From Halomonas alkalicola (GTDB taxonomy: Bacteria; Pseudomonadota; Gammaproteobacteria; Pseudomonadales; Halomonadaceae), in contig NZ_CP131913.1 of the NCBI RefSeq assembly GCF_030704205.1, forward strand, positions 1,116,001 through 1,180,000: DNA of 64,000 nucleotides. Direction: 5' to 3'. A program made the position numbers and the translations under genes. Of the stretch, positions 30,846-49,724 are shown piece after piece. A model generated the notes under the pieces. That model did no database searches, was not told the DNA's origin, and worked only from the letters and a program-made list of their open reading frames with translations. Within the stretch, counting starts at the first letter, position 1. Each line of letters starts with the position of its first letter.

Positions 30846-32410
30846 TCGCCAAAGTCCTCATGCAGCCAGCCGCGCAGGGCCTCCAGGCCGTGCTCGGCAG
30901 GGCCCGGCGCCGGCATCATGCCGGGCTCGAAGCCCCGCGCCAGGAAGGGGGCAAGCAGGGAAGCGTCTGCGCTGATCACATGCACCGGCACCCCGAAGCC
31001 CGCCTCGTCACCGATGATCAGGGGGGCGGCCTGGTGGTCGCCCAGCAGGATCAGCAGGGCCTCGTCGCCGAGCGCGTCCGCCGCCCAGCGGGCGCTGACC
31101 TCCAGGGCGTAGTCCACCGAGTGCGCATAGTGCTCGCGCACCCGCTCGAGATCCTGCCACAGCTCGTCCGGCGGGATGCCGGCGTCCTCCCACTGATAGA
31201 AGATGCTGCCGTCCCCCACCGCGTCCCAGTCGTCGAGCACCGGCAGGATCGGCGTCCAGGGCGCGTGGCTCGAGATCAGGGCGACCTGGGCAAACAGCGG
31301 CGCCTCGGCCGGGGCGCGGATGCGCTGCTCGAAGTGGTGCAGGGTGAACTGGTCGGGCATGGTCACCCAGTTGAGGGGCGGCCCGGCGTAGTCGATGTCG
31401 GCGGCGGCGTGGATCTCGTCGAAGCCGTAGGCCTCGCCCTCCGGCCAGGCCAGGGTGATGGCGGGCATCACCGTCAGGGTGCGATGCCCACTGGCCCGGA
31501 AGTCGTCCACCAGGGTCGGCCGCTCGCTTGCCAGCATCAGCCGGTACCAGAGCGAGTTGTCGATCCTCAGGCCGCTCAGGGTGCTGGCATGGGCGAGCCA
31601 GGACTGTCCGCCGCGGATCGGCGCGTCCAGCAGCCCCGTGGCCATCACAAGCCCTGCCTCTGCCAGGCGCGCCTCCATGGCCGCCAGCCGCGGGAGGGTC
31701 ACCTCGCTGAAGCGTGGATCGAACACCGAAGACTCGCCATAGGACTCCACGAAGACCAGCAGCACATCACGCCCGGCAAGCCCCGGCAGCGCGGTGGCCC
31801 GGGTGGGCGACGCCGCCATGCGCGCGGCGAAGTCGCGATGGGCGCGGCGCGTCTCCACCAGCTGCTGGCCCTGGAAGCGCAGGGTATCCATGGCCGGCGC
31901 CCGGGCCACGGGCAGCCAGCGCTGATGATGCCACTGGGCCGCCATCAGGGTAGTACTGGCCAGAAGCAGCAGGAGCGCGATCAGCGACACCGCCCCGCCC
32001 GTCGCCTGCCGCTGTCCGGCACGCAGTGCTCGATTCAGCGCCCAGCCAACCAGGCCGACAAGCAGCAGGGCCGCCAGGGTGGTGGCCCAGGCCATCCCGG
32101 TGCCCAGGTTGCCCTCCAGCAGGTGAAACACCGAACGCAGCAGCGGCAGGTCCAGATAGAGGTTCAGCGAACGGCCGAGGGCCAGGTGGGTGGCCGCATC
32201 GCCGAGGCCGGCGAGCACCGCCACCATCACGACGACGGTCAAGAGCGGGCGCAGCCAGCCCAGTCGACCGGCCGGCAGCACCACCAGCAGGGCCGCCAGC
32301 AGCAGCGCCTCCAGGGCGACCCAGCGGGTGGCGATCTCCCCGAAGCGCAGCCACAGGGGCAGCAGCAGCAGCAGGTTGAGCAGGACGGCAAGGCCCAGCA
32401 GTCGGAGCAT
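30842..32410 (-). CDS. Membrane-anchored sulfatase-like (phosphoethanolamine/LTA-synthase-type) enzyme
   Basis: A 522-residue protein with five N-terminal membrane helices (residues 1-165, Leu-rich) and a C-terminal periplasmic alkaline-phosphatase-fold domain. Motifs: LLVFVESYGESSVFD (metal site 1), IRGGQSWLAHASTLSG where the nucleophile is expected, and LLILLGDHQAAPLI (metal site 2). The fold is shared by LTA synthases, EptA-type transferases and OpgB-like phosphoglycerol transferases. The exact transfer reaction is unclear; the usual Thr nucleophile is not obvious. It is upstream of and coupled to manC, and its promoter region faces opgG. Confidence 0.78.
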   Translation of the reverse strand: MLRLLGLAVLLNLLLLLPLWLRFGEIATRWVALEALLLAALLVVLPAGRLGWLRPLLTVVVMVAVLAGLGDAATHLALGRSLNLYLDLPLLRSVFHLLEGNLGTGMAWATTLAALLLVGLVGWALNRALRAGQRQATGGAVSLIALLLLLASTTLMAAQWHHQRWLPVARAPAMDTLRFQGQQLVETRRAHRDFAARMAASPTRATALPGLAGRDVLLVFVESYGESSVFDPRFSEVTLPRLAAMEARLAEAGLVMATGLLDAPIRGGQSWLAHASTLSGLRIDNSLWYRLMLASERPTLVDDFRASGHRTLTVMPAITLAWPEGEAYGFDEIHAAADIDYAGPPLNWVTMPDQFTLHHFEQRIRAPAEAPLFAQVALISSHAPWTPILPVLDDWDAVGDGSIFYQWEDAGIPPDELWQDLERVREHYAHSVDYALEVSARWAADALGDEALLILLGDHQAAPLIIGDEAGFGVPVHVISADASLLAPFLARGFEPGMMPAPGPAEHGLEALRGWLHEDFGE

Positions 32411-32650: not shown

Positions 32651-34223
32651 ATGCCCCTGAGACGACACCCTCGCCTGACGGCGTGCCTGGCCATGGCGCT
32701 GCTGCTGGCCCTGCCGGCCGCCGCCGAGACCGCCCCCGGGGAGGTCGATGCCCTCTTCGAGCGCGTCACCGACAGGGCCGAGGCGCTGGCCGGCCGCCCC
32801 CACGACCCCGGCACCGGCGAGCTGCCCGAGGCGCTGCGCGACCTGGACTACGACACCTACCGACAGATCCGCTTCCGCCCGGAGGCCGCCCTGTGGGGAG
32901 ACGAGGGCCTCTTCTCGGTGCAGCTCTTCCATACCGGCTTCCTGTTCGAATCGCCGGTCCGGCTGCATGCGGTGGAGGGCGGCGAGGTGACCGCGCTGGA
33001 CTTCGACCCCGCCCGCTTCCGCTACGACGACGCCGCCGCCGCCCTGCCGGAGCGGGACCTCTCCGGCGCCGGCCACGCCGGCTTCCGGCTGCACTTCCCC
33101 CTCAACCGGGCCGACTACCAGGACGAGTTCGCGGTATTCCTCGGCGCCTCCTACTTCCGCCTGGTAGGCCGCGGCCAGGGCTACGGCCTCTCCGCCAGGG
33201 GCCTGGCCATCGATACCGCCCTGCCCCGGGGCGAGGAGTTTCCGGCCTTCCGCGAGTTCTGGCTGGTGCGCCCGGCTCCGGAGGCCAGCCGCATGACGGT
33301 GCTGGCCCTGCTCGACAGCCCCTCGCTTGCCGGCGCCTACCGCTTCGATATCGCACCGGGGCGCAATATCCAGGTGGAGGTGACCGCCCGGCTCTTCGCC
33401 CGCCGCGATGTGGAGCGGCTTGGCGTGGCGCCGCTGACCAGCATGTTCGCCCACGGCGATACCACCCCCCGGACCGTGGACGACCACCGCCCGGCGGTGC
33501 ACGACTCCGACGGCCTGCTGGTACACACCGGGAGCGGCGAATGGATCTGGCGTCCGCTCACCAACCCGCGCTCGCTGCGCGTCTCCTCGCTGCTCGACCG
33601 CGACCCCGGTGGCTTCGGCCTGGCCCGGCCTGGCCCAGCGGGAGCGAAACTTCGACCGCTACCTGGACCTCGAGGCCCGCTACGATCGCCGCCCCAGCCA
33701 GTGGGTGGAACCGCTCGTCCCCTGGGGGGCGGGGCGCGTGCAGCTCATCGAGATCCCCGCGCCGGACGAGACCCACGACAACATCGTCGCCTTCTGGGTC
33801 AGCAACACGCCCCTGCGCGCCGGCGAGCGCCGCGAGCTGCGCTACCGCACCCACACCTTCGGCGCCGAGCCCGCCGCGGCGGCACCGGCCCGGGTCATCC
33901 GCACCCGCCAGGGCTGGGGCGGCGTGCCCGGCGATCCCAGCCCGCCGCCGCGCAGCCGACGCCACTTCATGGTGGACTTCGCCGGCGGCGAGCTCGAGAA
34001 CCTCTCCCCCGACCAGCCGGTGGAGGCCGAGCTCACGGCGAGCCGCGGCGAGATCCACCACCTGCAGACACGCCCGCTGCCGGACGGCCGCGGCTGGCGC
34101 GCCTCCTTCCGCCTCGACCCCGACGGCCAGCAGTCCAGCGACCTGCGCCTGCGGCTCCGCCTGCGCGACGAGGTGATCAGCGAGACCTGGAACCATGTCT
34201 GGCACCCCGACGAGCGGCGCTAG
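32651..34223 (+). pseudogene. opgG: Periplasmic glucan biosynthesis protein OpgG, frameshifted by a 10-bp duplication
   Basis: The gene encodes an OpgG/MdoG-type protein with a signal peptide (cleavage after AAA near residue 25) and the family sequence from DLDYDTYRQIRFRPEAALW onward. At 33617-33636 the 10-mer GGCCTGGCCC is present twice in tandem. The first frame then goes wrong (ARPGPAGAKLRPL) and ends at 34228. The real C-terminus (FDRYLDLEARYDRRPSQWVE onward) continues in another frame to the stop at 34221-34223. Removing one copy restores 520 residues, close to the 511 of E. coli OpgG. OpgG shapes osmoregulated periplasmic glucans. The C-terminal 190 residues are lost as read, so the protein should be non-functional if the duplication is real. 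Confidence 0.88.
33617..33636 (+). repeat. 10-bp tandem duplication inside opgG
   Basis: GGCCTGGCCC at 33617-33626 is repeated exactly at 33627-33636. One copy gives the expected Gly-Leu-Ala-Gln-Arg reading; two copies shift the frame by one base. Confidence 0.95.
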
Positions 34224-36123
34224 CCTAGCCGCCCGCCGCGGCCGCCACGCCGGTGCCCGGCTCCCGGGGCTGGCACTGCGCCGGGCACTGCTGGGCGGCC
34301 TGGCGCTGCTCACCACCCTCGTCGGCACGGGGCTCATGTGGCACATCCTCTCGCCCGGCGGCATCACGCCGCTGCGCGGGGGCATCCTCGCGCTCTTCAC
34401 CCTCACCTTCGCCTGGGTCGCCGTGGGCTTCTGGAGCTCCGTGGCCGGTTTTTTTCTTCTGCTGCTGCTCGCCGACCGCGACCCCCTGACCCTGGCCCGC
34501 CGGCCCCGGGTCGCCGACGAGCGTCAGCTGCCGATCACCCGGCGCACCGTGCTGGCCATGCCGATCCACAACGAGTCGCCCGAGCAGGTGGACGCTGCCC
34601 TCTCGGCCACCGCCGAATCGCTCATCGCCACCGGCGAGGCGCACCACTTCACGCTCTTCGTGCTCAGCGACACCACCGACCCGGCCATCGCCGTGGCGGA
34701 GGCCCGCGCCATGGCCGCCCTTCAGCGGCGCCTCGAAGGGCGCCTGGCCGTGCACTATCGGCGCCGCGCCGACAACGCCGGGCGCAAGGCGGGCAACCTC
34801 GCCGAGTTCTGCCGCCGCTGGGGGGCGGCCTTCGACTTCATGGTAGTGCTGGATGCCGACAGCCGCATGGACGGCGAGACGCTGCTGGGGCTGGTGCGGG
34901 CCATGCAGGCCCGCCCCGGGGTAGCGCTGATCCAGACGGTACCGCTGCCGGTGCGCCAGCACACCCTGTTCGGCCGCCTGGCCCAGTTCGCCGCCAGCCT
35001 CTATGCCCCCATGCTGGCCGCCGGCCAGAGCGCCTGGCAGGGCGACGCCGCCAACTACTGGGGGCACAACGCCATCCTGCGCCTGCGCGCCTTCATGGAC
35101 CACGCCGGCCTGCCGCCCCTGCCCGGCCGCCCGCCGCTGGGCGGCGAGATCTTGAGCCACGACTTCGTGGAGGCCGCCCTGCTGCGTCGCGCCGGCTGGG
35201 AGGTGCAGCTCGAGACCCGGCTGACGGGCAGCTTCGAGGAGATGCCCGGCAACCTGCTCGACTATGCCCGCCGCGACCGGCGCTGGACCCAGGGCAACCT
35301 GCAGCACCTGCGCCTGCTGGCGGCGCCGGGCCTGCACGGCCTGAGCCGGCTGCACTTCCTGCTCGGCGCCACCGCCTTCGTCTCCTCGCTGCTGTGGCTC
35401 GCCATCCTGCTCGCCGGCAGCCTGGATGCGGTGCTGATCGCCCGCAGCGAGCCCGCCTACTTCGGCCATGGCGAGCAGCTCTTCCCCTTCTGGCCCCGGG
35501 CGCGCCCCGAGCTGATCGCCGCCCTGCTGGCGATGACCGCCACCCTGCTGCTGCTGCCCAAGCTGCTGGGGCTGCTGCTGGCCCTGGGGCGACGCGCCGC
35601 CGGCTACGGCGGGCGAACACGCTTTTGCCTCAGCGCCCTGCTGGAGGGGCTCGCCGCCATTCTGCTTGCCCCGATCATGATGGCCTTCCACAGCGCCTTC
35701 GTGGTCGGCGTGCTGACCGGCACCAGCGTCGAGTGGGGCGCCCAGGTCCGCGAGGGACGTCGCGTGCCCTGGCGGGAGGCGCTGCGCCACACCGCGCCCT
35801 TCGCCCTGCTCGGGGGGCTGTGGATCGCCCTTGTCCACTGGCAGGTGCCGATGCTGGTCGCCTGGCTGGCCCCGGTCTGGGTGGGGCTGGCCCTGTCTCC
35901 GCTGCTGGTGCGCTTGAGCGGCAGCCGCCGGGCGGCCGCCTGGCTGGCGAGACGGGGGCTGCTGCGCACCCCGGAGCCCCAGGCCCATGCCGAGCTGCTG
36001 GAAGAGCGCCGCGACCTCGCCGCCAACGACGCGGCCGAGGCCGACACGCCGGCCCTACGGCCACCGCCTCCCGAATGTCCCGGAGAGATGCCCACCCAAC
36101 TCCTGCATAGGGAACCTCGATGA
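34195..36123 (+). CDS. opgH: Glucan glucosyltransferase OpgH
   Basis: A 642-residue inner-membrane GT2-type glucosyltransferase that polymerises the beta-glucan backbone of osmoregulated periplasmic glucans. Two N-terminal helices precede the catalytic domain (MPIHNESPEQVDAALSA, VVLDADSRMDG, HDFVEAALLRRAGWEV, and the processivity motif RDRRWTQGN), followed by five or six helices. E. coli OpgH has 847 residues; this one is shorter mainly at the N-terminus. Its start lies 29 nt inside the opgG coding end, so translation of opgG and opgH would normally be coupled; the opgG frameshift moves the opgG stop to 34228. Confidence 0.92.
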   Translation: MSGTPTSGASLAARRGRHAGARLPGLALRRALLGGLALLTTLVGTGLMWHILSPGGITPLRGGILALFTLTFAWVAVGFWSSVAGFFLLLLLADRDPLTLARRPRVADERQLPITRRTVLAMPIHNESPEQVDAALSATAESLIATGEAHHFTLFVLSDTTDPAIAVAEARAMAALQRRLEGRLAVHYRRRADNAGRKAGNLAEFCRRWGAAFDFMVVLDADSRMDGETLLGLVRAMQARPGVALIQTVPLPVRQHTLFGRLAQFAASLYAPMLAAGQSAWQGDAANYWGHNAILRLRAFMDHAGLPPLPGRPPLGGEILSHDFVEAALLRRAGWEVQLETRLTGSFEEMPGNLLDYARRDRRWTQGNLQHLRLLAAPGLHGLSRLHFLLGATAFVSSLLWLAILLAGSLDAVLIARSEPAYFGHGEQLFPFWPRARPELIAALLAMTATLLLLPKLLGLLLALGRRAAGYGGRTRFCLSALLEGLAAILLAPIMMAFHSAFVVGVLTGTSVEWGAQVREGRRVPWREALRHTAPFALLGGLWIALVHWQVPMLVAWLAPVWVGLALSPLLVRLSGSRRAAAWLARRGLLRTPEPQAHAELLEERRDLAANDAAEADTPALRPPPPECPGEMPTQLLHREPR

Positions 36124-36932
36124 CGGCTCTACTCTCGCCGGCCCGCCTGCGCCAGGGCGCCGGCATTGCCCGCTCGCTGCTGATCTACTGGCGCCCGGGG
36201 CGACAGCGCGCGCTGCGTCGCCTCTACGCCGACTTCATCGGTCCCGGCGACCTGGCCTTCGACGTGGGCGCCCACCTCGGCGACCGCACCGCGGCCTTCC
36301 AGGCGCTGGGCGCACGGGTGGTGGCCCTGGAGCCCCAGCCCGGGCTCTTCCGCTGGCTGGCGCGGCTGGTGGGCGGTCGGGCCGGGGTCATCCTGCTGCC
36401 CCAGGCCGCCGGGGCCGAACCCGGTGAGGCAGAGCTCGCGGTGAGCGAAGCCAACCCCACGGTCTCCACCCTGGCTCATGAGTGGCGTACCACCATCGGG
36501 GCGCGCAACCCCGGCTTCCAGAACGTGCGCTGGGAGAGCCGCCGGCGGGTCGCGGTGACCACCCTGGACGCGCTGATCGCCGAGCACGGCACCCCGCGCT
36601 TCTGCAAGATCGACGTGGAGGGCTTCGAGGCCGAGGTGCTGGCGGGGCTCTCCCAGCCCATCGAGGGGGTCTCGGTGGAGTTCGTGGCCGGCGCCCTGGA
36701 GGTGGCCGAGCGCTGCGTGACACGCCTGGCCGCGCTGGGCGACTATCGCTTCAACGCCATCGAGGGAGAGCGCCGTCAGTTCCGCTGGCCCGAGTGGCGA
36801 ACGGCGGACGCCACCCTCGGGTGGCTCGCGCAGGGCGCCGACGGCCTCCCTTCAGGCGACCTCTACGCGCGGCTGGACACCCCGAACGCCACCACGCCCC
36901 CGGATACCTCGACCGCGGAGACGACCCCATGA
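36120..36932 (+). CDS. FkbM family methyltransferase
   Basis: A 270-residue SAM-dependent methyltransferase of the FkbM type: FDVGAHLGDRTAAFQALGAR for SAM binding, then VVALEPQPGLFRWL, CKIDVEGFEAEVLAGL and the C-terminal SVEFVAG. The last 35 residues are low-complexity Thr/Pro. FkbM enzymes often O-methylate sugars or polyketides. The start overlaps the opgH stop by ATGA, so it is translationally coupled to the glucan genes and a role in modifying the glucan is possible. The creatininase-family gene overlaps its end in the same way. Confidence 0.87.
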   Translation: MTALLSPARLRQGAGIARSLLIYWRPGRQRALRRLYADFIGPGDLAFDVGAHLGDRTAAFQALGARVVALEPQPGLFRWLARLVGGRAGVILLPQAAGAEPGEAELAVSEANPTVSTLAHEWRTTIGARNPGFQNVRWESRRRVAVTTLDALIAEHGTPRFCKIDVEGFEAEVLAGLSQPIEGVSVEFVAGALEVAERCVTRLAALGDYRFNAIEGERRQFRWPEWRTADATLGWLAQGADGLPSGDLYARLDTPNATTPPDTSTAETTP

Positions 36933-37762
36933 GCTCCTCCCCCGCCCAGGCCCCAAAGGACTTTCCGCGCTGGCAGGACCTGACGCCCCCCGAACTCGCC
37001 GAGCTGCCTGAGGCGAGCGTGGTGGTGATGGTGCTCGGTGCCATCGAGCAGCACGGCGCCCACCTGCCACTCTCCACCGACCTCGACATCGGCGAGGGGC
37101 TGCTGGCCGCCGCCCTCGCGCGGCTGCCGGCGGGCTTCCCGCTAGTGCAGCTGCCGACCCTGGCGGTGGGCGCCAGCGACGAGCACCTGAGCTTTGGCGG
37201 CACCCTGAGCCTCTCGCCGGAGCTCGCCATCGCCACCCTGGAGGCCCACGGCGATGCCGTGGCCCGGGCCGGGTTCCAGCGACTGGTATGGCTCAACAGC
37301 CACGGCGGCAACAAGGCGGTGATGGACCTGGCCGCCCTGCGGCTGCGCCGCCGCCACGGCCTGCTGGTGGTCAAGGTTCACTACATGCGCATGCCGCTGC
37401 CGGATGACCTCCCGGACGCGACGCTGCCCGCCGAGGAACTACGCCACGGGCTGCACGGCGGTGCGCTGGAAACCGCCCTGATGCGCCACCTGGCGCCGCA
37501 CAAGGTGCGCCTGGCGCACCTGGACCACCCGATCTCCCGGGGCCAGGCCATGGCGGAGGAGGGCCAGCTGCTGGGCCCGGAGGGGGAAGCGGCCTTCGCC
37601 TGGCTGGCCGAGGACCTGCATCCGGAGGGCGTCGTCGGCAACGCCCACCTCGGCAGCGCCGAACTGGGCGCGCGTCTGACCGACCACTACGCCTCGCGCA
37701 TCGCCCGGATCCTCGAGGAGACCCGCACGATGCGCCTCGAGCGATCCCACGGCGGGCCCTGA
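36929..37762 (+). CDS. Creatininase-family metal hydrolase (possible FAPy-deformylase-like enzyme)
   Basis: A 277-residue protein of the creatininase fold with the metal-ligand pattern Glu40, His42 and Asp51 (GAIEQHGAHLPLSTDLD) and the SHGGNK motif. This family includes creatininase, MftE peptidase and ArfB, the deformylase that acts on the formamidopyrimidine product of GTP cyclohydrolase in archaeal flavin and F420 synthesis. The gene overlaps fkbM by ATGA and lies 18 nt from the convergent ribA-like gene. Neighbouring GTP cyclohydrolase II and RibD-type genes make a pyrimidine/pterin role attractive, but by operon it belongs to the opgGH-fkbM strand. The family call is firm, the substrate is open. 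Confidence 0.85.
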   Translation: MSSSPAQAPKDFPRWQDLTPPELAELPEASVVVMVLGAIEQHGAHLPLSTDLDIGEGLLAAALARLPAGFPLVQLPTLAVGASDEHLSFGGTLSLSPELAIATLEAHGDAVARAGFQRLVWLNSHGGNKAVMDLAALRLRRRHGLLVVKVHYMRMPLPDDLPDATLPAEELRHGLHGGALETALMRHLAPHKVRLAHLDHPISRGQAMAEEGQLLGPEGEAAFAWLAEDLHPEGVVGNAHLGSAELGARLTDHYASRIARILEETRTMRLERSHGGP

Positions 37763-37780
37763 CGGCGCCGGTTCGTCGCC

Positions 37781-38911
37781 TCAGCGTCGCGCCCGGAACA
37801 CCTCGTCGAGCAGGTGGCCGGCACGGTCGGCCTTGGCGCTCAGGTAGCGGTGGTTGTGGTCGTTGAGGCTGCCGTAGAGCGCCTGGCGCTCCACCACCTC
37901 GATTCCGCCCTGGGCCAGAGCCGCCATCTTCAGGGGGTTGTTGGTCATCAGCTGCACGCGGCGGATGCCCAGGGCGTCGAGCATGTCCACCGCCACGCCG
38001 TAGCGCCGCTCGTCCTCGCCGAAGCCGAGCACCTGGTCGGCATCCAGGGTGTCGAGCCCACTGTCCTGGAGGGTGTAGGCGCGCAGCTTGTTGGCCAGGC
38101 CGATCCCGCGCCCCTCCTGGGCCAGGTAGAGGAGCACGCCGCCGCCCAGGGCCTCGATCTCGGCCACGGCGTTGCGCAGCTGCTCGCCGCAGTCGCAGCG
38201 CAGGCTGCCGAACAGGTCGCCGGTAAGGCAGGCGGAGTGCAGGCGCAGCGGCACGGCCGCCTCCGGCGCCTCGAGGGGCGGGTCGCCGATCACCACCGCC
38301 ACGTGCTCGCGCAGCCCGTCGGGCTCGCGAAACAGGATGAAGCGGCACTCGTCGGCATCGGCCAGGGGGATCCTGGCCTCGCTGACCCGGCGCAGCAGCC
38401 CGCCGGCCCCGTCCAGGCAGCGCGCCGCCTGCTCGGCCTTCACCGTCAGCAGGGTGCCGTCGGCCACCGCCGCTTTCACCGCCTCGCTCTGGGATTCGGC
38501 GACCCGCGCCACCAGGGCCGAGGGGATCAGCAGCGCCCGGCGCATCAGCGCCAGGGCCGCCAGATCGGCCGGCTCCGCTGCCTCCAGGGCCGAACGGCAC
38601 TCGTCCAGCCCCGCCTCGCCGAGGCTCGCCGCCGGCGTGGCCCCGTAGGCCAGGCACTCGAGGCGCCGACGCACCCGCCCGGCCGGCAGCGGCAGCCGCG
38701 CCGCCGTGCCGCCCTTCCCCGCGCCGAGGGTCGCCAGACGATGCCGGCTGAGCACCAGCGCCGGGGAAGTGCCGGCAAGCTCGCCCAGCCGCGCGACGGC
38801 CGCCTCGGCGGCCCCCTCGAGGGCCTGGACCAGCACCCTGGACTCACCGGCCACCAGCAGCACCGGCAGCCCCCGTCGTAGATCAAAGATGGCCCGTTCA
38901 ACCTGATGCAT
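37781..38911 (-). CDS. ribA: GTP cyclohydrolase II with N-terminal extension
   Basis: A 376-residue protein. The C-terminal half (about residues 185-376) is a complete GTP cyclohydrolase II: zinc ligands Cys228, Cys239 and Cys241 in HSACLTGDLFGSLRCDCGEQ, the catalytic region YLAQEGRGIGLANKLRAYTL, DADQVLGFGEDERRYG and LMTNNPLKMAAL. It would convert GTP to 2,5-diamino-6-ribosylamino-pyrimidinone phosphate, the first riboflavin intermediate. The N-terminal 180 residues have no DHBP synthase motifs I can see. This longer RibA form exists in other proteobacteria. The start is supported by an AGGAGAG site. It is divergent from the RibD-type reductase gene (86 nt between starts). Confidence 0.9.
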   Translation of the reverse strand: MHQVERAIFDLRRGLPVLLVAGESRVLVQALEGAAEAAVARLGELAGTSPALVLSRHRLATLGAGKGGTAARLPLPAGRVRRRLECLAYGATPAASLGEAGLDECRSALEAAEPADLAALALMRRALLIPSALVARVAESQSEAVKAAVADGTLLTVKAEQAARCLDGAGGLLRRVSEARIPLADADECRFILFREPDGLREHVAVVIGDPPLEAPEAAVPLRLHSACLTGDLFGSLRCDCGEQLRNAVAEIEALGGGVLLYLAQEGRGIGLANKLRAYTLQDSGLDTLDADQVLGFGEDERRYGVAVDMLDALGIRRVQLMTNNPLKMAALAQGGIEVVERQALYGSLNDHNHRYLSAKADRAGHLLDEVFRARR

Positions 38912-40820
38912 CGCTCTCTCCTGGTGGTTTCGATGCGCTTGGCGTCGCGCCCAAGATCTGCGCATGGTGGTGGTCAGCTCCCCGGCAGGAGGCCCCATGG
39001 GCGCCACCGATTCGACGCTCTCCCTGGAGGAGGCCTGGCAGGCCCTCGTGCATGCCGCTCACCCCGACCGCGAGCCGCCCGCACAGGCATCCGACCTGCG
39101 CCTCTCGGCGGCCGGCTGGCAGGCCGCGCGCCCCGTCGCGCCAGAGGCCCGCGAACTGCTCGAGTGCCTGGCCCCGCTGGCCGCCCGGCCCGGCCGGCTG
39201 GCCATCGCCCAGCTCGGGCAGAGCCTGGACGGGCGCATCGCCACCGAGAGCGGCCACTCCCACTACGTCAACGGCCCGCAGAGCCTGGTGCACCTGCACC
39301 GGCTGCGCGCCCTGGTGGACGCCGTGGTGGTCGGCGCCGGCACCGCCAGCGAGGACGATCCCCTGCTCACGGTGCGCCATGTGACCGGGCCCCACCCGGT
39401 GCGGGTGATCCTCGACCCCCGCGGCCGGGTAACGCCGGACCGCCGCCTGCTGCGCGACCCCGTGGCGCCGACCCTGCACCTGCACGGCGAGGGGGCGCCT
39501 CCGCAAGGCCCGTCGGGGGCGCATGTGGAGCGCCTGGCGCTGCCGCTGGTCGAGGGCGGCTTCGCCCCGCGGGCGGTGCTCGACATCCTGGCCGAGCGCG
39601 GCCTCGCCCGGGTGCTGATCGAGGGCGGAGGCATCACGGTGTCGCGCTTCCTCGAGGCCGGCGTGCTCCATCGCCTGCACCTGCTGGTGGCCCCGCTGCT
39701 GATCGGCTCCGGCCGACCGGGGCTGGTCATGACGCCCATCGCCACCCTCCACGAGGCGCGCCGCCCCACGTCGCGGACCTTCCGCTGCGGTGACGACACC
39801 CTCTTCGATCTCGCGCTCGGCGCCCCGGCCCCCTGAGCCCTCGGGCTCGCCACCGGCGTTCCCCGGCACGACGTGAAGCGCCCGATGCAGCAACACCAGG
39901 CCGCCGGGCAGACTCGCCAGCAGCACGATGATTCCGTAGGCCATGGAGATCGCCACCCCCTGGGCCGGCGGCAGCCCCGCAAGCCCCCACACCAGGGCGG
40001 CGGCTCCCTCGCGCACCCCCCAGCCGGCGAGCGTGATCGGGATCAGCATCGCCAGCAGCACCGGCGGCACCAGCGCCAGCAGGGTGGCAAGCGGCAGCTG
40101 GACGCCGATCGCCCGGGCGGCGCAGACGAACACCAGGGCGTAGCTCACCACCACCAGCAGCGACCCGGCGAGCTGCCTGGGCCACACCGAGGCGGCCAGC
40201 AGGCTGCGCCTGAGATCACCACCGAGGCCCACCAGGGCCGCCGGCGGGCGCCTGGCCAGTTGCCAGACCACCAGAACCATCAGCAGCAGGGCGGCGCCCC
40301 CGGCCGGCAGCCAGACCGATGCGACCGCGCTCCGGAAGGCGCGGCTCAGCAGCTCATGCCAGAGCGGCGAGGCGGCCAGCACGGCCAGGGTCAGCAGCGC
40401 CATGGCGAGCTGACCGGAGGCACGTTCGATGATCACCGCCCGCCAGGCGCCGCCGAGCTGCCCGCTGTCGCGGGAGTGGCGCCAGGCCCGGGCGGCATCG
40501 CCGGCCACCCCGCCCGGCAGCACCTGATTGAGGAAGAGCGCCAGGTAGTACTCCCGCAGAGCGCGGCGGAACCCCAGCGAGAGCCCCAGCAGGCGAGCGG
40601 TGAGCCGCCAGCGCCAGGCGCTCAGCAAGAGGGGCGGCAGGGTCAGCGCCAGGGCCAACAGGGCCCAGCCCGGCGAGAGCCGCTGCACCTCGGCGAGGAT
40701 CGCCCCCGGCTGAAGCCACCCGACGAGACCGACCAGCAGTACCACCCCCACCAGCGGGCGCAGCAGGCCCTGGCGTGCGGGGCGGCGCGCTCGCCGGGCT
40801 GCTCGTTGGGAAAGGGCCAT
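38898..40820 (-). CDS. Lysylphosphatidylglycerol synthase-type (flippase-like) membrane protein; no stop at expected end
   Basis: The N-terminal 325 residues (about 39845-40820) form an 8- to 9-helix membrane domain of the LPG_synthase_TM / YbhN type: LRPLVGVVLLVGLVGWLQPG, LFLNQVLPGGVAGDAARAWR, and PITLAGWGVREGAAALVWGL. The family includes flippases and AglD-like lipid proteins. The start lies 2 nt after the methyltransferase stop. The usual stop after about 330 residues is missing, and no frame stops soon after. As read, the protein would continue another 315 residues antisense through the RibD-type gene to TGA at 38898, 14 nt inside ribA. That tail is Gly/Arg/His-rich and probably not meaningful; a true end near 39840 is not defined by sequence. 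Confidence 0.75.
   Translation of the reverse strand: MALSQRAARRARRPARQGLLRPLVGVVLLVGLVGWLQPGAILAEVQRLSPGWALLALALTLPPLLLSAWRWRLTARLLGLSLGFRRALREYYLALFLNQVLPGGVAGDAARAWRHSRDSGQLGGAWRAVIIERASGQLAMALLTLAVLAASPLWHELLSRAFRSAVASVWLPAGGAALLLMVLVVWQLARRPPAALVGLGGDLRRSLLAASVWPRQLAGSLLVVVSYALVFVCAARAIGVQLPLATLLALVPPVLLAMLIPITLAGWGVREGAAALVWGLAGLPPAQGVAISMAYGIIVLLASLPGGLVLLHRALHVVPGNAGGEPEGSGGRGAEREIEEGVVTAAEGPRRGAARLVEGGDGRHDQPRSAGADQQRGHQQVQAMEHAGLEEARHRDASALDQHPGEAALGQDVEHRPRGEAALDQRQRQALHMRPRRALRRRPLAVQVQGRRHGVAQQAAVRRYPAAGVEDHPHRVGPGHMAHREQGIVLAGGAGADHHGVHQGAQPVQVHQALRAVDVVGVAALGGDAPVQALPELGDGQPAGPGGQRGQALEQFAGLWRDGARGLPAGRREAQVGCLCGRLAVGVSGMHEGLPGLLQGERRIGGAHGASCRGADHHHAQILGATPSASKPPGESDASG
38997..39836 (+). 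CDS. RibD C-terminal-type (dihydrofolate reductase-like) reductase
   Basis: A 279-residue protein whose last 215 residues are a RibD_C reductase domain: LAIAQLGQSLDGRIATESGH, VDAVVVGAGTASEDDPLLTV, the RVILDPRGRVTPD block, and VLIEGGGITVSRFLEAG. There is no deaminase domain, so this is a stand-alone reductase with an N-terminal extension of about 60 residues. It would reduce the ribosyl side chain of an aminopyrimidine or a related pterin. The start at 38997 has an AGGAGG site; an earlier ATG at 38964 has none. It is the only plus-strand gene inside the minus-strand cluster. Confidence 0.85.
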   Translation: MGATDSTLSLEEAWQALVHAAHPDREPPAQASDLRLSAAGWQAARPVAPEARELLECLAPLAARPGRLAIAQLGQSLDGRIATESGHSHYVNGPQSLVHLHRLRALVDAVVVGAGTASEDDPLLTVRHVTGPHPVRVILDPRGRVTPDRRLLRDPVAPTLHLHGEGAPPQGPSGAHVERLALPLVEGGFAPRAVLDILAERGLARVLIEGGGITVSRFLEAGVLHRLHLLVAPLLIGSGRPGLVMTPIATLHEARRPTSRTFRCGDDTLFDLALGAPAP

Positions 40821-40822
40821 GC

Positions 40823-41748
40823 TCAGGCGCCCCTGGCCGACAGCGGCGGCAGCGCCAGCAGGTCGCGATGCCCCACGACCAGCCCCAGCTCCCCGGCGGC
40901 GAGGCCGGCCAGCCGCCGCTCGCACCAGCGCGCGAGACGCGCCTGCTCTTCCGGGGCCTGGGCCAGGGCGGCGTCATGGCATCCCCGTACCAGCGGCTCG
41001 GCCAGGGACCACTGCGCCTCCTCCCCAGCGGCCAGGTGCCAGGGGGTGGCCGCGCTCTCCACCCGGTAGCCGGCCGCGGTCATGGCCGCCGCCAGCACGC
41101 CGGGGGCGTCGCCGCCCAGCGCCGGGCCAAGCCCCTTGTCGCGGCGCTGGTGGGCCTGGAAGAGCGCCCGGACCGCGATGTCCTCCTCATCCTCGACTCG
41201 CTCTCCAGCGGTATCCAGGAAGGCCCAGTCGCCATCCACGCTCAGCGTGAAGAGCAGCGCCTGGCCGCGCCCGGCCGCGGCCGCCACCAGCGCCTCGGCC
41301 CAGGGGCGCGATACCAGGTCGAAGAGCGCCGAGGCCACCACCAGGTCGCCGCCCTCGAGCAGGCCATCATCCACCGGCGCCAGGTCGCGGCAGCTGGCCT
41401 CGACGGTCAGCCGGCCACCGGTGGGGTCGCGCAGGGTGGCGCCATGACGTCGGGCCAGCGCCAGCAGCGCCGGGTCGTGGTCCACCAGGCGCCAGCGCTG
41501 GGGCCCCGGCAGCCGCGGCGCGAGGAAGCGCAGGTTGCTGCCGCTGCCGCATCCCAGATCGAGGATGCCATGCGCGCCGTCGTGTGCTCCGGGCCGGCCG
41601 GCGAGCCAGTCGGCGGCCAGGCCCGTCAGGCAGTGGCTGCGCGAGCGGGCGTCGAGCGCCTCGCGGCGGGAGAGCCAGTCGGCGCTGAAGCGCTCGCCTG
41701 GGCGGGTGGCCTCGGCGTCGACCGGACCGGGGGGGCGGGTAGCGTCAT
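40823..41748 (-). pseudogene. SAM-dependent methyltransferase; frame interrupted at a C7 tract just after the start
   Basis: The class I methyltransferase body reads without fault from RFSADWLSRREALDARSRSH through the SAM site HGILDLGCGSGSNLRFLAPR and VVASALFDLVSRPWAEALVA to the stop at 40823. The natural start is clear: an ATG at 41748 overlaps the GT4 stop by ATGA and has a GAGGAG site. From that ATG the frame is wrong after MTLPAPP because the run of C at 41729-41735 (G on the plus strand) has seven bases; eight would give 308 in-frame residues. No other start codon is in the correct frame nearby. Either the tract is a slippage switch or the base is a read error. The substrate is unknown; it lies in the pterin/flavin-like cluster. 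Confidence 0.8.
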
Positions 41749-42899
41749 GGCGGGCTCTCCTCGGGCGCCTGGCCGGCGTCGGTTGGGTCGGGGGTGGGTG
41801 CGGGAGTGGGAGCCGCAGCGTCCTCCAGGGCCGCCAGAAAGCGGTCGCCGGCCTGCTGCCAGTCGCCCAGGTGGCCGCGGGCCTCCCGGGCGCCGCGGCG
41901 CAGCCGGCAACGCAGCGCGGCGTCATCGAGCCAGGCGGCCAGGGCCGCACCCAGGGCGTCGGCATCAACCGGAGGCACGGCCAGGCCGGCCCCCGGCGGC
42001 AGGGTGTCGACCAGGGCGCCGCCGGTGGTGGTGAGCACCGGCAGGCCGCGGGAGAGCGCCTCGGTGACCACCATGCCGTAGCCCTCGTAGCGCGAGGGCA
42101 GCACGAAGAGCTCCGCCCGGTGGTAGGCGGCGGCCAGCTCGGCGGTGCTGCGCTCCCCGGCCCAGTCGATGCGCCCCTCGAAGCCGTAACGGCGAGTGGC
42201 ATCGTAAAGCCGGGCGGCATGAGCGGAATCGCGCTCGGCGCTGCCGATGGCCGTCAGGGTCCAGTCGCGTTCCCCGAGGCCGGCCAGCGCCTTGAGCAGG
42301 ACATCGTGGCCCTTGCGCGGGACCAGGGTCGCCACGCAGAGCAGGCGCCGGGGGCCGGGGGATTCGAGATCCAGGGCGCTGGCCGCCAGCGGCACCGGCT
42401 CGACGCCAGGCTCGACCACGCGGAGCCGCTCGGGCGCCACGCCAAAACGCCCAAGGCCCCGGGCGGTGAAGCGGCTGGTAACGATCACCCGACGCGCCAG
42501 GGCCAGGGCGCGGGTCTCGCTGTCGAGCAGCGAGCGGCGGGTCGCCTCGTCCAGGCCGGTCTCGTCGGCCAGGGGGTGGTGGACCAGGGCGATGATCGCC
42601 AGGCGATCCGCATGGCGGGCGATCACCTCGGGGAGCCCGCCCATGGCGAGGCCGTCGATGACCACCCGGGCACCGTCGGGCAGTGCCGCGAGCGCCCGGG
42701 TCATGCTGCGCCGGGCCAGGTCGTCCGGCACGGGAAAGCGCCCCTCGAGCCCCACCACCTCGACACGGCAGCCCCGGGCCCTGAGCGCTTCGGCGATGCG
42801 GGCGTCATAGAGATAGCCGCCGGTGAGCTGGCCGGGATCGCCGGCCACGATCATCGTGACGGGCATCGTCACGGGCCGGGCCAGAGTGGCGCTCGCCAT
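41745..42899 (-). CDS. GT4-family glycosyltransferase
   Basis: A 384-residue GT-B glycosyltransferase. The N-terminal acceptor domain starts at VAGDPGQLTGGYLYDARIAE. The C-terminal donor domain has LLCVATLVPRKGHDVLLKAL and the EX7E-like signature FVLPSRYEGYGMVVTEALSR. The C-terminus ends with a Pro/Ala/Thr-rich tail. The start overlaps the stop of the PTPS-like gene (TGATG); a GTG one codon earlier is also possible. It probably transfers a sugar from a nucleotide donor to the cluster product. It is tightly coupled on both sides in the minus-strand operon. Confidence 0.9.
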   Translation of the reverse strand: MASATLARPVTMPVTMIVAGDPGQLTGGYLYDARIAEALRARGCRVEVVGLEGRFPVPDDLARRSMTRALAALPDGARVVIDGLAMGGLPEVIARHADRLAIIALVHHPLADETGLDEATRRSLLDSETRALALARRVIVTSRFTARGLGRFGVAPERLRVVEPGVEPVPLAASALDLESPGPRRLLCVATLVPRKGHDVLLKALAGLGERDWTLTAIGSAERDSAHAARLYDATRRYGFEGRIDWAGERSTAELAAAYHRAELFVLPSRYEGYGMVVTEALSRGLPVLTTTGGALVDTLPPGAGLAVPPVDADALGAALAAWLDDAALRCRLRRGAREARGHLGDWQQAGDRFLAALEDAAAPTPAPTPDPTDAGQAPEESPP

Positions 42900-43297
42900 C
42901 ACAGGGGGCCCTCGAAGCTGGCCCAGGCGATATGGGATTCGTGGAGGGTCACGGTCATCGCCTCGAGCCCGCCGGCGCCCTCCCCCAGCCGCCCCAGCTG
43001 GATCGCCGTGGCCAGGCGCTCGAAGATCACCCGGGCCATGAACTCGGTGGTGGTGTTGCGGCCCTGGAACTCCGTCAGTTCATCGAGGTTCTGGAAATTG
43101 AACTCGGCGAGCACCGCCTTGAGCGCCTCGCTGGCCAGGCCGATGTCCACCACCAGGTCATGGTCGTCGAGCTCGCGGCGCTGGAAGGTGACGTCCACCA
43201 CGTAGGTGGCGCCGTGGGTCCGCTGGGCGGGCCCGAAGACCTCGCCGCGAAAGCTGTGGGCGATCATCACGTGGTCGCGAACGGTGAGTCGGTACAT
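42899..43297 (-). CDS. 6-pyruvoyl-tetrahydropterin synthase (QueD/PTPS)-like protein, altered active site
   Basis: A 132-residue T-fold protein that begins [19 protein letters not shown]. It keeps the family layout, including [20 protein letters not shown] and the final [15 protein letters not shown]. In canonical PTPS/QueD the first zinc His is followed by a catalytic Cys and an HGH pair. Here His14 is present, but the HGH position reads His28-Gly-Ala30 and no Cys precedes it. Zinc binding and the usual triphosphate-lyase chemistry are therefore doubtful. Glu of LHES is kept. It starts 1 nt after the dehydrogenase stop and is probably recruited for a different pterin or pyrimidine substrate. 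Confidence 0.82.
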
Positions 43298-43298
43298 G

Positions 43299-44327
43299 TC
43301 AGGGCTCCAGTCGGTCGGATTCGGATCCGTCGGCGTCGAATCGGTCGGGCGAGGCATAGCGCAGCCGGTGGCAGAGCACCTCGCCGGCCCCGGCGGCAAG
43401 GCGAGGCATCAGGGCGGGCAGCTCGGAGAAATCGCTCTCGCCGCTGATCAGGGCGTCGAGGCGAGAATCGCGCAGCAGCTCGAGCGCCAGCGCCAGGCGC
43501 CGGGCGTGGCCCCAGCGCGGCATGCGCTCGGCGGGCAGGCGGCCCACCTGGCTGCCGATCAGCTTGAGCCGCCGGGAATGGAAGGCCTCCCCCAGCGGCA
43601 GGCTCGCCTCGCGATCGCCGTACCAGCTCATCTCCACCACCCGCGCCTCATCGCCGGCCAGCGCCAGCGCCTGGCGCAGCCCCTCGGGGTTGCCGCTGGC
43701 GTGGATCACCAGGTCGTTGTCCCCCGGCGCCTCGCCGGCCAGGCAGAAATCGACGCCCAGGGCGCGGGCGAGCTCGGCCCGCCCCGGCGAGACGTCCACC
43801 AGCCGTACCCGGGTGCCGGGAATTGCCGCGCAGAGCCAGGCCACCAGGGCGCCCACCACGCCGGCACCGATCACCGCGATGCGGTCGCCCAGGCGCGGCT
43901 CGGCGTCCCAGCAGCCGTTGAGCGCGGTCTCCATGTTGGCGGCGAGCACCGCCCGGGCGGCGGGCAGGCCCGCCGGCAGCGGCGTGACGGAGGCGGCCGG
44001 CACCACGTAGCGGTCCTGGTGGGGATGCAGGCAGAACACCTCCCGGCCCAGCAGCGCCGCGGGGCCTGCCTCGACCCCCCCGACGCTGACATAGCCGTAC
44101 TTCACCGGCCAGGGGAAGTCGCCGACCTGGAAGGGGGCGCGCATGCGCTGCCGCTCGCTCTCGGGCACCCGCCCCTGAAAGACCAGCGCCTCGGTGCCGC
44201 GGCTGATGCCGCCGAACAGCGCCCTCACCCGGACCTCCCCCTCGCCGGCGGCGGGCAGCGGCTCCGCGCGCAGTTCACCGTGACCCGGGGCCAGGGTCCA
44301 GAAGGCGGTGGCGGTGTCGACGGACAT
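43299..44327 (-). CDS. Medium-chain zinc-binding dehydrogenase
   Basis: A 342-residue MDR-family protein (also seen next to PTPS-like genes in other genomes, as I recall). The N-terminal GroES-like domain has [20 protein letters not shown] and [18 protein letters not shown]. The Rossmann part is [19 protein letters not shown] followed by [10 protein letters not shown]. The catalytic zinc Cys of classical ADHs is replaced by Ser (GGISRGTE), so it is probably a BchC-like reductase without that zinc site. It is the first gene of the minus-strand cluster operon and has a GGAG ribosome site. Confidence 0.85.
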
Positions 44328-44364
44328 GGCGGCTCCAGCGGTGAGGCGGGCGAATACTTCTACA

Positions 44365-44394
44365 ATAATGGTACAGTAACATGCAAATGAACAA
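44365..44394 (-). promoter_or_regulatory. Putative sigma70-type promoter of the minus-strand cluster operon
   Basis: On the minus strand TTGTTC (44389-44394) and CATTAT (44365-44370) are spaced by 18 nt inside an AT-rich patch of the divergent region. They lie 38 nt upstream of the dehydrogenase start. Hexamers are only partly consensus. Confidence 0.4.
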
Positions 44395-44489
44395 TTTTAT
44401 CGCTGCCGGCGGCCCAGGGCGGTGCCGACTGCTAGTGTGGTGGTCATGAGCCCATCGCGTTCAGCATAGCGGCTATGCCTCGCCACCAT

Positions 44490-44541
44490 GGCCGTCGACA
44501 ACGGCCATCGACAACGGCCATCGACAGCGGCGATCAACAAC
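44490..44541 (+). repeat. Four 13-bp tandem repeats before the CDP-alcohol phosphatidyltransferase gene
   Basis: Consensus GGCCATCGACAAC, four adjacent copies (44490-44502, 44503-44515, 44516-44528, 44529-44541) with the outer copies diverged. The array ends 15 nt before the chosen start codon and its ribosome site. A reading frame from 44488 would translate it, so it is either a 5' leader or a variable N-terminus. Confidence 0.85.
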
Positions 44542-44556
44542 CATCAGGGAGCCCGG

Positions 44557-45303
44557 ATGCCCTCTCCTCTCTCATCCCACCCGCCTGCGCAAGGGACCGC
44601 CGAGGCGACGCGGCCTTGGCGCCTGGCCATGGAGCTGGCGCTGGGCGGTCTCACCCTGCTCGGGCTTCTGGCCACGCTGGGGCTGGTGGGGTCATGGGTA
44701 GCGCCGCTGGCCATCGCCACCTACCTGGGGATGGCGGCCCTGCTGTGGCGCGCCCTGCGCCGCCGCCCCATGCGCCAGGGCGGGCTGGGCGCGGCCAACC
44801 GGGTCACCCTGGCGCGAGGCGTGCTGGTGGCCCTGCTGGCCGGCACCCTGGCCGACCCGGCCCTGCTGGCCAGCCACACAGAGTGGCTCTTCGGCGTCGC
44901 CCTGGTCGCCCTGGCCCTGGACGGCGTGGATGGCTGGGTCGCCCGGCGCAGTGGCAGCGCCAGCGCCGTGGGGGCCCGCTTCGACATGGAGCTCGACGCC
45001 TTCTTCATCCTGGTGCTCTGCCTGGCGCTGCTGCTGCTGGAGCGCGTCGGCCCCTGGGTGCTGGCCATTGGCGCCATGCGCTACGCCTTCGTGGCGGCGA
45101 GCTGGCGCTGGCCCTGGCTCGCCGGCGAGCTGCCGGACAGCCAGCGACGCAAGGCGGTCTGCGTGTGGCAGGTGGCGGCGCTGATGCTCGCCCTGCTGCC
45201 GGCCACGCCCGGCCTGATCGCCACCTGGCTGGCCGCCACCGCCCTGGCGGGGCTCACCCTCTCCTTCGCCGTGGACGTGCGCTGGCTCTACCACCATCGA
45301 TAA
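44557..45303 (+). CDS. CDP-alcohol phosphatidyltransferase family membrane protein
   Basis: A 248-residue inner-membrane enzyme with six or so helices and a perfect CDP-alcohol motif, D-x2-DG-x2-AR-x8-G-x3-D-x3-D: Asp122, Asp125, Gly126, Ala129-Arg130, Gly139, Asp143 and Asp147. Such enzymes join a CDP-activated alcohol (often CDP-diacylglycerol) to a second alcohol. The start at 44557 follows a GGGAG site; a start at 44488 would add 23 residues across the 13-bp repeats. It is divergent from the dehydrogenase operon and may supply a lipid part to the cluster product. It could also be independent. Confidence 0.87.
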   Translation: MPSPLSSHPPAQGTAEATRPWRLAMELALGGLTLLGLLATLGLVGSWVAPLAIATYLGMAALLWRALRRRPMRQGGLGAANRVTLARGVLVALLAGTLADPALLASHTEWLFGVALVALALDGVDGWVARRSGSASAVGARFDMELDAFFILVLCLALLLLERVGPWVLAIGAMRYAFVAASWRWPWLAGELPDSQRRKAVCVWQVAALMLALLPATPGLIATWLAATALAGLTLSFAVDVRWLYHHR

Positions 45304-49099: not shown

Positions 49100-49142
49100 C
49101 TAGGCTGTAGCGGTGCCCCACCTCGATTCCGGGAGACGCCCC

Positions 49143-49724
49143 ATGTCTGAGTTGGAATTGTCAGAGACGGACCGCTACGCCTACCCTCACCGCGTGCTGC
49201 ACTGGCTGGTGGCCGCGGTGCTGCTGCTGTCGCTGGCCAGCGGCCTGACCCTGGGGTTTCTCGGCTTCGAAGGGGCCATGGAGCGCCTGGGCCGGGCCGG
49301 CACCGACTTTCTCTACACCTCCCACAAGTCCCTCGGCGTGGCCCTGCTCGCGCTGATGACCCTGCGGGTGATGACGCGGCTGCTCTATGTGGTGCCCGAC
49401 CATGACCCGCCGCTGCACCCCTTCCAGCGCATCCTAAGCACCGCGGTGCACCACCTCCTCTACCTGGCGCTGCTGGCCCAGCCGATGCTGGGCTGGGCCG
49501 CCACCGCCAGCGGCGACTTTCCGGTGCAGTTCCTGCACTGGCACCTGCCCGGCATCGTGCCGGTGAACGAGGCGCTCTCGGAGCGGCTGTTCGAATGGCA
49601 CGGCTGGCTGGGCTGGGTGATCCTCGGCCTGATCACCCTGCACATCAGCGGTGCGCTCTACCACTGGCTGATCCGTCGCGACGGCGTGATGGCACGCATG
49701 AGTCTCTTCGATCCGGATCGTTAG
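49143..49724 (+). CDS. Cytochrome b561 family protein
   Basis: A 193-residue inner-membrane di-heme cytochrome with four helices. Candidate axial His are in YPHRVLHWLVA (helix 1), YTSHKSLG (helix 2), EWHGWLGW (helix 3) and LHISGALYHWLIRRDG (helix 4). This matches the bacterial b561/Ni-hydrogenase b type that carries quinol electrons. The start at 49143 follows a GGAG site; an upstream GTG is less likely. The exact partner is unknown. It is downstream of the IS and upstream of the phosphorylase gene. Confidence 0.87.
   Translation: MSELELSETDRYAYPHRVLHWLVAAVLLLSLASGLTLGFLGFEGAMERLGRAGTDFLYTSHKSLGVALLALMTLRVMTRLLYVVPDHDPPLHPFQRILSTAVHHLLYLALLAQPMLGWAATASGDFPVQFLHWHLPGIVPVNEALSERLFEWHGWLGWVILGLITLHISGALYHWLIRRDGVMARMSLFDPDR

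Follow-up and report, generated by a model that had tools for sequence, protein, structure and literature searches.

PTPS-IV proteins are a named group within COG0720 (Zallot 2016, PMC5041015), and a 2017 network study, AGeNNT, linked their gene neighbourhood with PF00925 and PF01872 (PMC5445326); in the accessible parts of both accounts the function of the group is left open, with mention of an unpublished archaeal role in F420. Here we analyse a stretch of 64,000 nucleotides from Halomonas alkalicola (contig NZ_CP131913.1, positions 1,116,001 to 1,180,000; the window) that carries a gene cluster around such a protein, and we propose from its sequence a dedicated pathway to a GTP-derived, glycosylated, methylated, lipid-linked and exported envelope molecule, a reading that is tentative but may well be right. 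New in this study are the recurrence across several phyla of a core of medium-chain dehydrogenase/reductase (MDR), PTPS-IV and GT4 glycosyltransferase, a divergent Haloarcula version that uses GTP cyclohydrolase III (GCH III), a rule governing the supply module, and a wider envelope-side system.

In S. coelicolor, SCO6650 (structure 3d7j) is by sequence a PTPS-IV protein, like that of the window; it is reported to lack PTPS activity and zinc. SCO6655 is a GTP cyclohydrolase II (GCHII) with Met in place of Tyr that yields a formyl pyrimidine, and we know of no product or pathway for either protein. Toxoflavin-type clusters resemble the present one in that a duplicate GCHII and RibD-type enzymes feed a side product, but the other Tox protein families are not among the Pfam matches of the cluster. 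The archaeal ArfA–ArfB–ArfC route to riboflavin and F420 comprises the three steps that we predict here, namely GTP opening, deformylation by a creatininase-fold enzyme and reduction by a stand-alone reductase; by contrast, in the bacterial cluster GCHII takes the place of GCH III, and the route would lead to a different end. Removal of formate from the formyl pyrimidine AFRPP by a creatininase-family enzyme, BrbF, has been shown in S. meliloti and B. abortus, where it serves riboflavin, unlike the role proposed here, and where its AFRPP-making partner is, in the accessible parts of that account, left undiscovered (PMC9478397). The PTPS-IV accounts share with our locus the FGPAQ signature and the neighbours PF00925 and PF01872; their accessible parts give no product and are without the creatininase rule, the GCH III swap, the core of MDR, GT4 and CDP-alcohol phosphatidyltransferase (CDP-PT) or the envelope genes (PMC5041015, PMC5445326). 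Because the accessible part of the 2017 study already links PTPS-IV to GCHII and RibD_C, the cluster type has not gone wholly unnoticed, and an earlier annotation made from the letters of the window (the sequence-only reading) overstated its novelty (PMC5445326). In the open literature, most subscription papers being out of reach, we found no described product for the cluster, nothing on it as a whole and nothing on GCHII Tyr105.

A recurring cluster around a PTPS-IV protein

The sequence-only reading named nine genes between 36929 and 45303, each of which is in place and has a Pfam match; its borders were too narrow, as the fkbM, mdoH/mdoG and LtaS-like genes belong to the recurring set. Positions are those of the window unless given as G000:C1, which refers to the host genome (3.61 Mb, one contig). 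The features are as follows.

30842..32410, minus strand: LtaS/EptC-like membrane-anchored alkaline-phosphatase-superfamily protein, assigned by fold (PF00884 5.5e-4, below cut-off)
32651..34223, plus strand: mdoG/opgG-like gene, split by a frameshift in the assembly (PF04349)
34195..36123, plus strand: mdoH/opgH-like family 2 glycosyltransferase (PF13632 1.7e-16)
36120..36932, plus strand: FkbM-family methyltransferase (PF05050 3.4e-13)
36929..37762, plus strand: creatininase-family amidohydrolase, predicted AFRPP deformylase (PF02633 1.9e-58)
37781..38911, minus strand: GCHII (RibA) with a RibB-fold N-terminal domain (PF00925 9.3e-56)
38964..39836, plus strand: stand-alone RibD_C reductase of the DARP-reductase type (PF01872 7.1e-35)
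39852..40820, minus strand: LPG_synthase_TM flippase-like membrane protein (LPG; PF03706 1.5e-39)
40823..41747, minus strand: class I SAM methyltransferase (MT), start unsure (Methyltransf_25, PF13649 1.7e-7)
41745..42902, minus strand: GT4 glycosyltransferase (Glycos_transf_1, PF00534 3.8e-29)
42899..43297, minus strand: PTPS-IV (FGPAQ) T-fold protein (Pfam PTPS 4.5e-24)
43299..44327, minus strand: MDR, weakly BchC-like (ADH_zinc_N, PF00107 9.9e-8; NCBIfam bchC 4.6e-8, under cut-off)
44488..45303, plus strand: CDP-PT, divergent from the MDR gene (CDP-OH_P_transf, PF01066 1.2e-14)

The minus-strand coupling noted earlier, from the MDR gene to the flippase-like gene, is borne out by small gaps and overlaps at the junctions: MDR and PTPS are separated by 1 nt (MDR stop ending at 43299, PTPS ATG from 43297), the PTPS stop and the GT4 GTG overlap by 4 nt (42899-42902), and 2 nt lie between the MT stop (40823) and the LPG ATG (40820). 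A plus-strand row of overlapping genes comprises mdoG (frameshifted), mdoH, fkbM and the creatininase gene, with fkbM overlapping its neighbour by 4 nt on each side.

By its sequence, the PTPS-like protein of the window is a member of PTPS-IV. It carries FGPAQ, which is invariant in 9 of 9 aligned members from the host's order and conserved to at least 95% across an alignment of 174 rows that includes two duplicate contigs; GTP_cyclohydro2 and RibD_C genes lie nearby; and a PTPS-IV profile matches SCO6650 (3d7j) at the level of an orthologue (3.6e-61). The CxxxHGH motif of PTPS-I/QueD is lacking, the window having AQRTHGA, with no catalytic Cys and an Ala where HGH has its second His; the substrate-pocket Glu and N-[TS]-TE motif are kept. 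As the catalytic Cys and one HGH His are absent, the protein is not an ordinary PTPS, and its earlier listing among the parts of GTP-to-pterin chemistry fails to the extent that an ordinary PTPS step is excluded. A queuosine role was rejected, the QueD motif being absent.

Profile searches of genome sets placed PTPS-IV in 17 of 194 genomes of the host's order (its own included), 27 of 398 of its phylum (E < 1e-42), 13 of 150 in the phylum of a Gemmatimonadota metagenome-assembled genome (MAG), 9 of 296 in the phylum of the Streptomyces diastatochromogenes genome (E ~1e-30 or better), 76 of 249 in the order of the Amycolatopsis rifamycinica genome and 61 of 119 in the order of the Streptomyces genome. 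Probable members of other PTPS families were not counted: a 28th match in the host's phylum (genome G417, 6.7e-13) and the weak 33 of 42 matches in the phylum of S. diastatochromogenes (E 1e-12 to 1e-21). Loci were found through PTPS, whose presence is thus by selection, and locus counts start from 175, recounted after removal of two duplicate contigs. Among 59 named loci (those of at least 20 kb among the best 80 of at least 581 encoding stretches, hence weighted to near kin), MDR, PTPS and GT4 occur in all 59, RibD_C in 57, CDP-PT in 56, LPG in 53, RibA and creatininase in 44 each, MT in at least 38 and FkbM in 25. The 28 proteobacterial genome-set loci of at least 18.9 kb all have MDR, PTPS and GT4, with RibD_C near 24, MT near at least 18, CDP-PT near 14, LPG near 12, RibA near 11 and creatininase near 7; MT counts are low throughout, as the model misses divergent members.

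The MDR–PTPS-IV–GT4 core is shared by loci from Actinomycetota, Gemmatimonadota and the gamma, beta and alpha classes of Proteobacteria. All 169 other loci that hold both MDR and PTPS have the two genes on one strand, and in 168 they lie within 300 bp of each other; core gene order is identical in Actinomycetota, and order and strand are common to Actinomycetota, Gemmatimonadota and Proteobacteria. At least eight organisms carry the cluster on plasmids, and on A. tumefaciens pAt a sulfatase, flippase, CDP-PT, ribA, MDR, PTPS, GT4, MT, RibD and cytochrome b gene are annotated together. The nearest named relatives of the window locus, among the matches listed, are Halomonas. For envelope and flanking genes we used 66 near, 43 distant and 64 actinobacterial loci (stretches reaching about 9–10 kb from PTPS; the window is included, with a wider slice). 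The neighbours thiC and tenA are lineage-bound, found near 7 and 10 of the 66 near loci and none of the 64 actinobacterial ones. The grouping is thus conserved in related genomes and also in distant phyla, and the view of a real, conserved biosynthetic cluster stands, with its novelty, its borders and the assignment of PTPS as an ordinary pterin enzyme revised. The cluster of Halomonas sulfidaeris ATCC BAA-803 is fragmented into many frames, with MDR split into four and RibA into three, from poor assembly or decay.

Haloarchaea carry a divergent version. Plasmids of Haloarcula halophila and H. pelagica have CDP-PT, an annotated GTP cyclohydrolase IIa, MDR, PTPS and MT genes one after another and a GT4 gene close by; the H. 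halophila cyclohydrolase is a GCH III (PF05165 6.6e-81) whose gene overlaps MDR by 8 nt and which is unrelated to bacterial GCHII. The archaeal PTPS proteins are 29-32% identical to that of the window and lack FGPAQ. On H. marismortui pNG700, a block comprises creatininase, CDP-PT, MDR, GT4, MT and a sulfatase-family gene. A PTPS 93% identical to the window's, in a MAG titled Natrialbaceae archaeon, likely reflects binning contamination and not an archaeal cluster.

GTP cyclohydrolase II and its creatininase-family neighbour

The host genome has three PF00925 matches: the cluster copy, a canonical RibA with intact motifs at G000:C1:2001457 and a degenerate RibBX-like protein at G000:C1:3027630-3028106 whose GCHII domain is without zinc cysteines. 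Because an intact ribA lies elsewhere, the cluster RibA is not the housekeeping copy; the concern in the sequence-only reading that it might be the sole ribA for riboflavin is thereby answered. A housekeeping riboflavin role for the cluster was rejected on the same ground, and a second RibD_C match (a 435-codon frame at G000:C1:3026140) is also present.

In the cluster GCHII (start at about 38911; numbering after an E. coli sequence), the zinc Cys triad and the equivalents of Tyr105, Asp126 and Arg128 are kept, and the equivalent of Glu53, the Glu beside the first zinc Cys, is Ala. Its AlphaFold model (pLDDT 85.7) matches RibBA 4i14 (best for the RibB-fold N terminus), GCHII 2bz0 and RibB structures in Foldseek. 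The additional N-terminal domain has no Pfam RibB match and, by eye, lacks the acidic motif usual in RibB; on its sequence this domain looks dead, and the protein does not qualify as a bifunctional RibBA. The RibBX-like protein, with its dead-looking GCHII domain, is a mirror image of this arrangement. The creatininase motifs EQHG, TD, HGGN and ET are conserved in 86 aligned cluster homologues, giving the protein the fold family and metal motifs of ArfB/BrbF-type formamidases.

Altered cyclohydrolases and the creatininase gene go together in two bacterial sets. In Actinomycetota, the cluster GCHIIs with Met (24), Leu (2) or His (2) at the Tyr105 position have a creatininase nearby in 28 of 28 cases, and those with Tyr105 in 0 of 19; changes of Tyr105 in E. 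coli GCHII cause it to stop at the formyl intermediate. In Proteobacteria and Gemmatimonadota, Glu53 is lost in 63 of 63 cluster GCHIIs (Ala 61, Ser 2), one of which has Ile at position 105, and a creatininase is nearby in 55 of these 63 loci; among non-cluster GCHIIs with an intact zinc motif, Glu53 is present in 16 of 17 and Gln replaces it in the other. One of the eight loci without a nearby creatininase is cut by a contig end, and six of the other seven genomes have a creatininase elsewhere. Both RibA and creatininase are present in 43 of the 59 named loci and neither in 14, with each found alone once; genomes without the cluster RibA had any creatininase in 0 of 4 (family f20) and 1 of 2 (genus g2). 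Together, the residue changes and the co-occurrence suggest an archaea-like division of labour, in which the GCHII goes no further than the formyl intermediate and a deformylase of the creatininase fold takes over. The proposed ArfB-type role of the creatininase is strengthened by this co-occurrence, by the kept motifs and by the BrbF precedent (PMC9478397, in its accessible part). As to orthology to SMc02977, a CobW-like neighbour was not recognised in the seven short loci checked, and identity to alphaproteobacterial creatininases is about 40%. An Arg90-to-Ala change was dropped as a marker of altered GCHII because non-cluster alphaproteobacterial GCHIIs share it.

A proposed pathway and its alternatives

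In the pathway that we propose, the cluster GCHII would open the imidazole ring of GTP and, with part of its deformylation machinery missing, release much of its product as AFRPP, from which the creatininase-fold protein would remove the formyl group to give DARoPP. The stand-alone RibD_C protein, whose nearest solved relatives are 6p8c (a DARP reductase) and 2azn and in which no deaminase domain was found, would by family reduce the ribosyl to a ribityl chain. These three steps would reproduce the archaeal ArfA–ArfB–ArfC route in bacteria, apart from riboflavin synthesis. PTPS-IV and MDR would then turn the pyrimidine into the core of the product, to be decorated by GT4 and the methyltransferases, joined to a phosphoalcohol or lipid by the CDP-alcohol phosphotransferase and flipped by the LPG_synthase_TM protein; outside the cytoplasm, the LtaS-like phosphotransferase (with OpgG/OpgH-like proteins in many Proteobacteria) may act on the product or on an accompanying glycan. 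A bolder form of this proposal, possible but doubtful, is that a bacterial copy of ArfABC, PTPS-IV and attachment to lipid or glycan by CDP-alcohol phosphotransfer define a new class of envelope-anchored or exported GTP-derived molecule, common to bacteria and haloarchaea, frequent in the Streptomyces order and possibly redox- or light-active (11 of the 43 distant loci have a cytochrome b561 gene nearby). If the pathway exists, about half of the sampled Streptomyces-order genomes and many marine or halophilic Proteobacteria would make an unnamed compound. It would account for the retention in S. coelicolor of a GCHII whose reaction ends with the formyl pyrimidine, suggest a kind of enzyme that may supply AFRPP to creatininase-fold deformylases, and give the orphan PTPS-IV family a pathway in which flavin/pterin chemistry is joined to envelope glycolipid chemistry.

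Several observations weigh against this proposal. It is from gene content, order, residues, co-occurrence and folds that we infer all of its reactions and its product. In the 28 proteobacterial loci, CDP-PT and LPG homologues were each recognised in about half, so that a lipid step need not be common to all clusters; of 55 actinobacterial loci (at least 18.3 kb), 21 have no RibD_C nearby, which makes the ribityl chain uncertain. The H. marismortui block has no GCH III within the 20.8 kb examined and no annotated PTPS. Tyr105 is retained in 62 of the 63 proteobacterial and gemmatimonadotal cluster GCHIIs, in which the part of Glu53 in deformylation is one that we infer. One genome (G510) has an altered GCHII (Ala53, Tyr kept) and no creatininase although rated 100% complete, and four loci (L066, L067, L113 and L307) have a creatininase without a local RibA. 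On the Actinomycetota tree, Tyr105 and the creatininase each change once, giving one independent pair (p = 1) and a test with no power; the GCHII–creatininase rule rests on few independent events and is not phylogenetically independent. The creatininase might instead open or trim an intermediate other than AFRPP, or serve the mdoGH operon that holds it here, an alternative with a real minority share of the probability. Its gene overlaps fkbM in the row with mdoH, Tyr105 is kept in the Halomonas GCHII, and identity to alphaproteobacterial creatininases is at a level from which the link to BrbF itself is not made; against this, the creatininase accompanies altered GCHIIs in both bacterial sets described above, and in Streptomyces its gene adjoins RibA far from mdoGH.

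The product itself could lie on a pterin branch, in which the sugar of DARoPP stays unreduced, and PTPS-IV closes the ring after an Amadori rearrangement, as GTP cyclohydrolase I does in the second half of its reaction, to give a dihydropterin; RibD_C would act on pterins as a reductase of the dihydrofolate-reductase kind, and the pterin glycoside formed by GT4 would resemble those of cyanobacteria. Bacteria are known to make pterin glycosides, the T-fold family that includes PTPS-IV handles pterins and the protein keeps the pocket Glu and N-[TS]-TE, and the actinobacterial loci without RibD_C would fit; yet the nearest solved relatives of RibD_C are DARP reductases, 57 of the 59 named loci have RibD_C nearby, and supply runs through enzymes of the flavin/F420 route instead of GTP cyclohydrolase I, making this branch unlikely, if a serious contender. 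That the cluster adds capacity for a secreted or special-purpose flavin or F420-like compound, with the glycan and lipid genes as unrelated neighbours, is improbable: all three supply enzymes are of riboflavin type, and S. meliloti keeps separate flavin pools for secretion and internal use (PMC9478397, in its accessible part), but the Pfam scan of the ten cluster genes found no ribH, ribE or deaminase, nor an active-looking RibB, and the most constant members, in an order conserved in distant phyla, are MDR, PTPS and GT4. Neighbourhood by chance or vertical descent, with no joint function, would suit the clearly lineage-bound thiC and tenA; for the cluster it is very improbable, given the same order and strand in three phyla, the plasmid copies and the translational coupling in the window. 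As to a flavin supply, we know of no flavin role for MDR, PTPS and GT4.

Envelope-side genes and local details

The AlphaFold model of the LtaS-like protein (pLDDT 88.6) finds LtaP/LtaS, EptC and MCR-1 as its best Foldseek matches; as modelled, it is by fold of the LtaS/EptA type, with transmembrane helices and an alkaline-phosphatase-like periplasmic domain. Homologues are found in 28 of the 64 actinobacterial, 9 of the 43 distant and 12 of the 66 near loci. Those of the mdoH-like protein occur in 21 distant, 22 near and no actinobacterial loci, and on Methylosinus and Neorhizobium plasmids mdoH is annotated directly beside MDR (with a 2-nt gap in Neorhizobium), which ties OpgH-like proteins closely to the system. 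The two mdoG halves (PF04349 7.7e-119 at 32651-33607 and 2.5e-60 at 33609-34223) are the sole PF04349 place in the genome; the frameshift (33600-33640) lies at a 10-nt tandem duplication, GGCCTGGCCC twice, at 33617-33636, and may be a real mutation, a slippage switch or an assembly error. A cytochrome b561 gene lies at 49113-49724 (PF01292 6.7e-25), with homologues in 2 near and no actinobacterial loci besides the distant ones given above.

The start of the MT gene is unsure because ATG, GTG and TTG are all absent in frame between 41600 and 41800 on the minus strand. Five of six relatives checked start with ATG or GTG and one with TTG, a homologue in locus L086 is 87% identical, and a frameshift in the window gene is possible. 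The LPG frame stays open on the minus strand to 38898, running antisense (38898-39851) through the whole of the convergent RibD_C gene, and this missing stop recurs across Halomonas/Vreelandella-type loci. Antisense tails of more than 200 codons occur in 29 of 83 convergent LPG/RibD_C pairs, against 1 of 49 other arrangements. The antisense frame was codon-aligned in 28 of 28 cases tested; among RibD_C genes more widely, 16 of 50 short ones and 23 of 49 others also have this frame open; the long extension is probably driven by composition.

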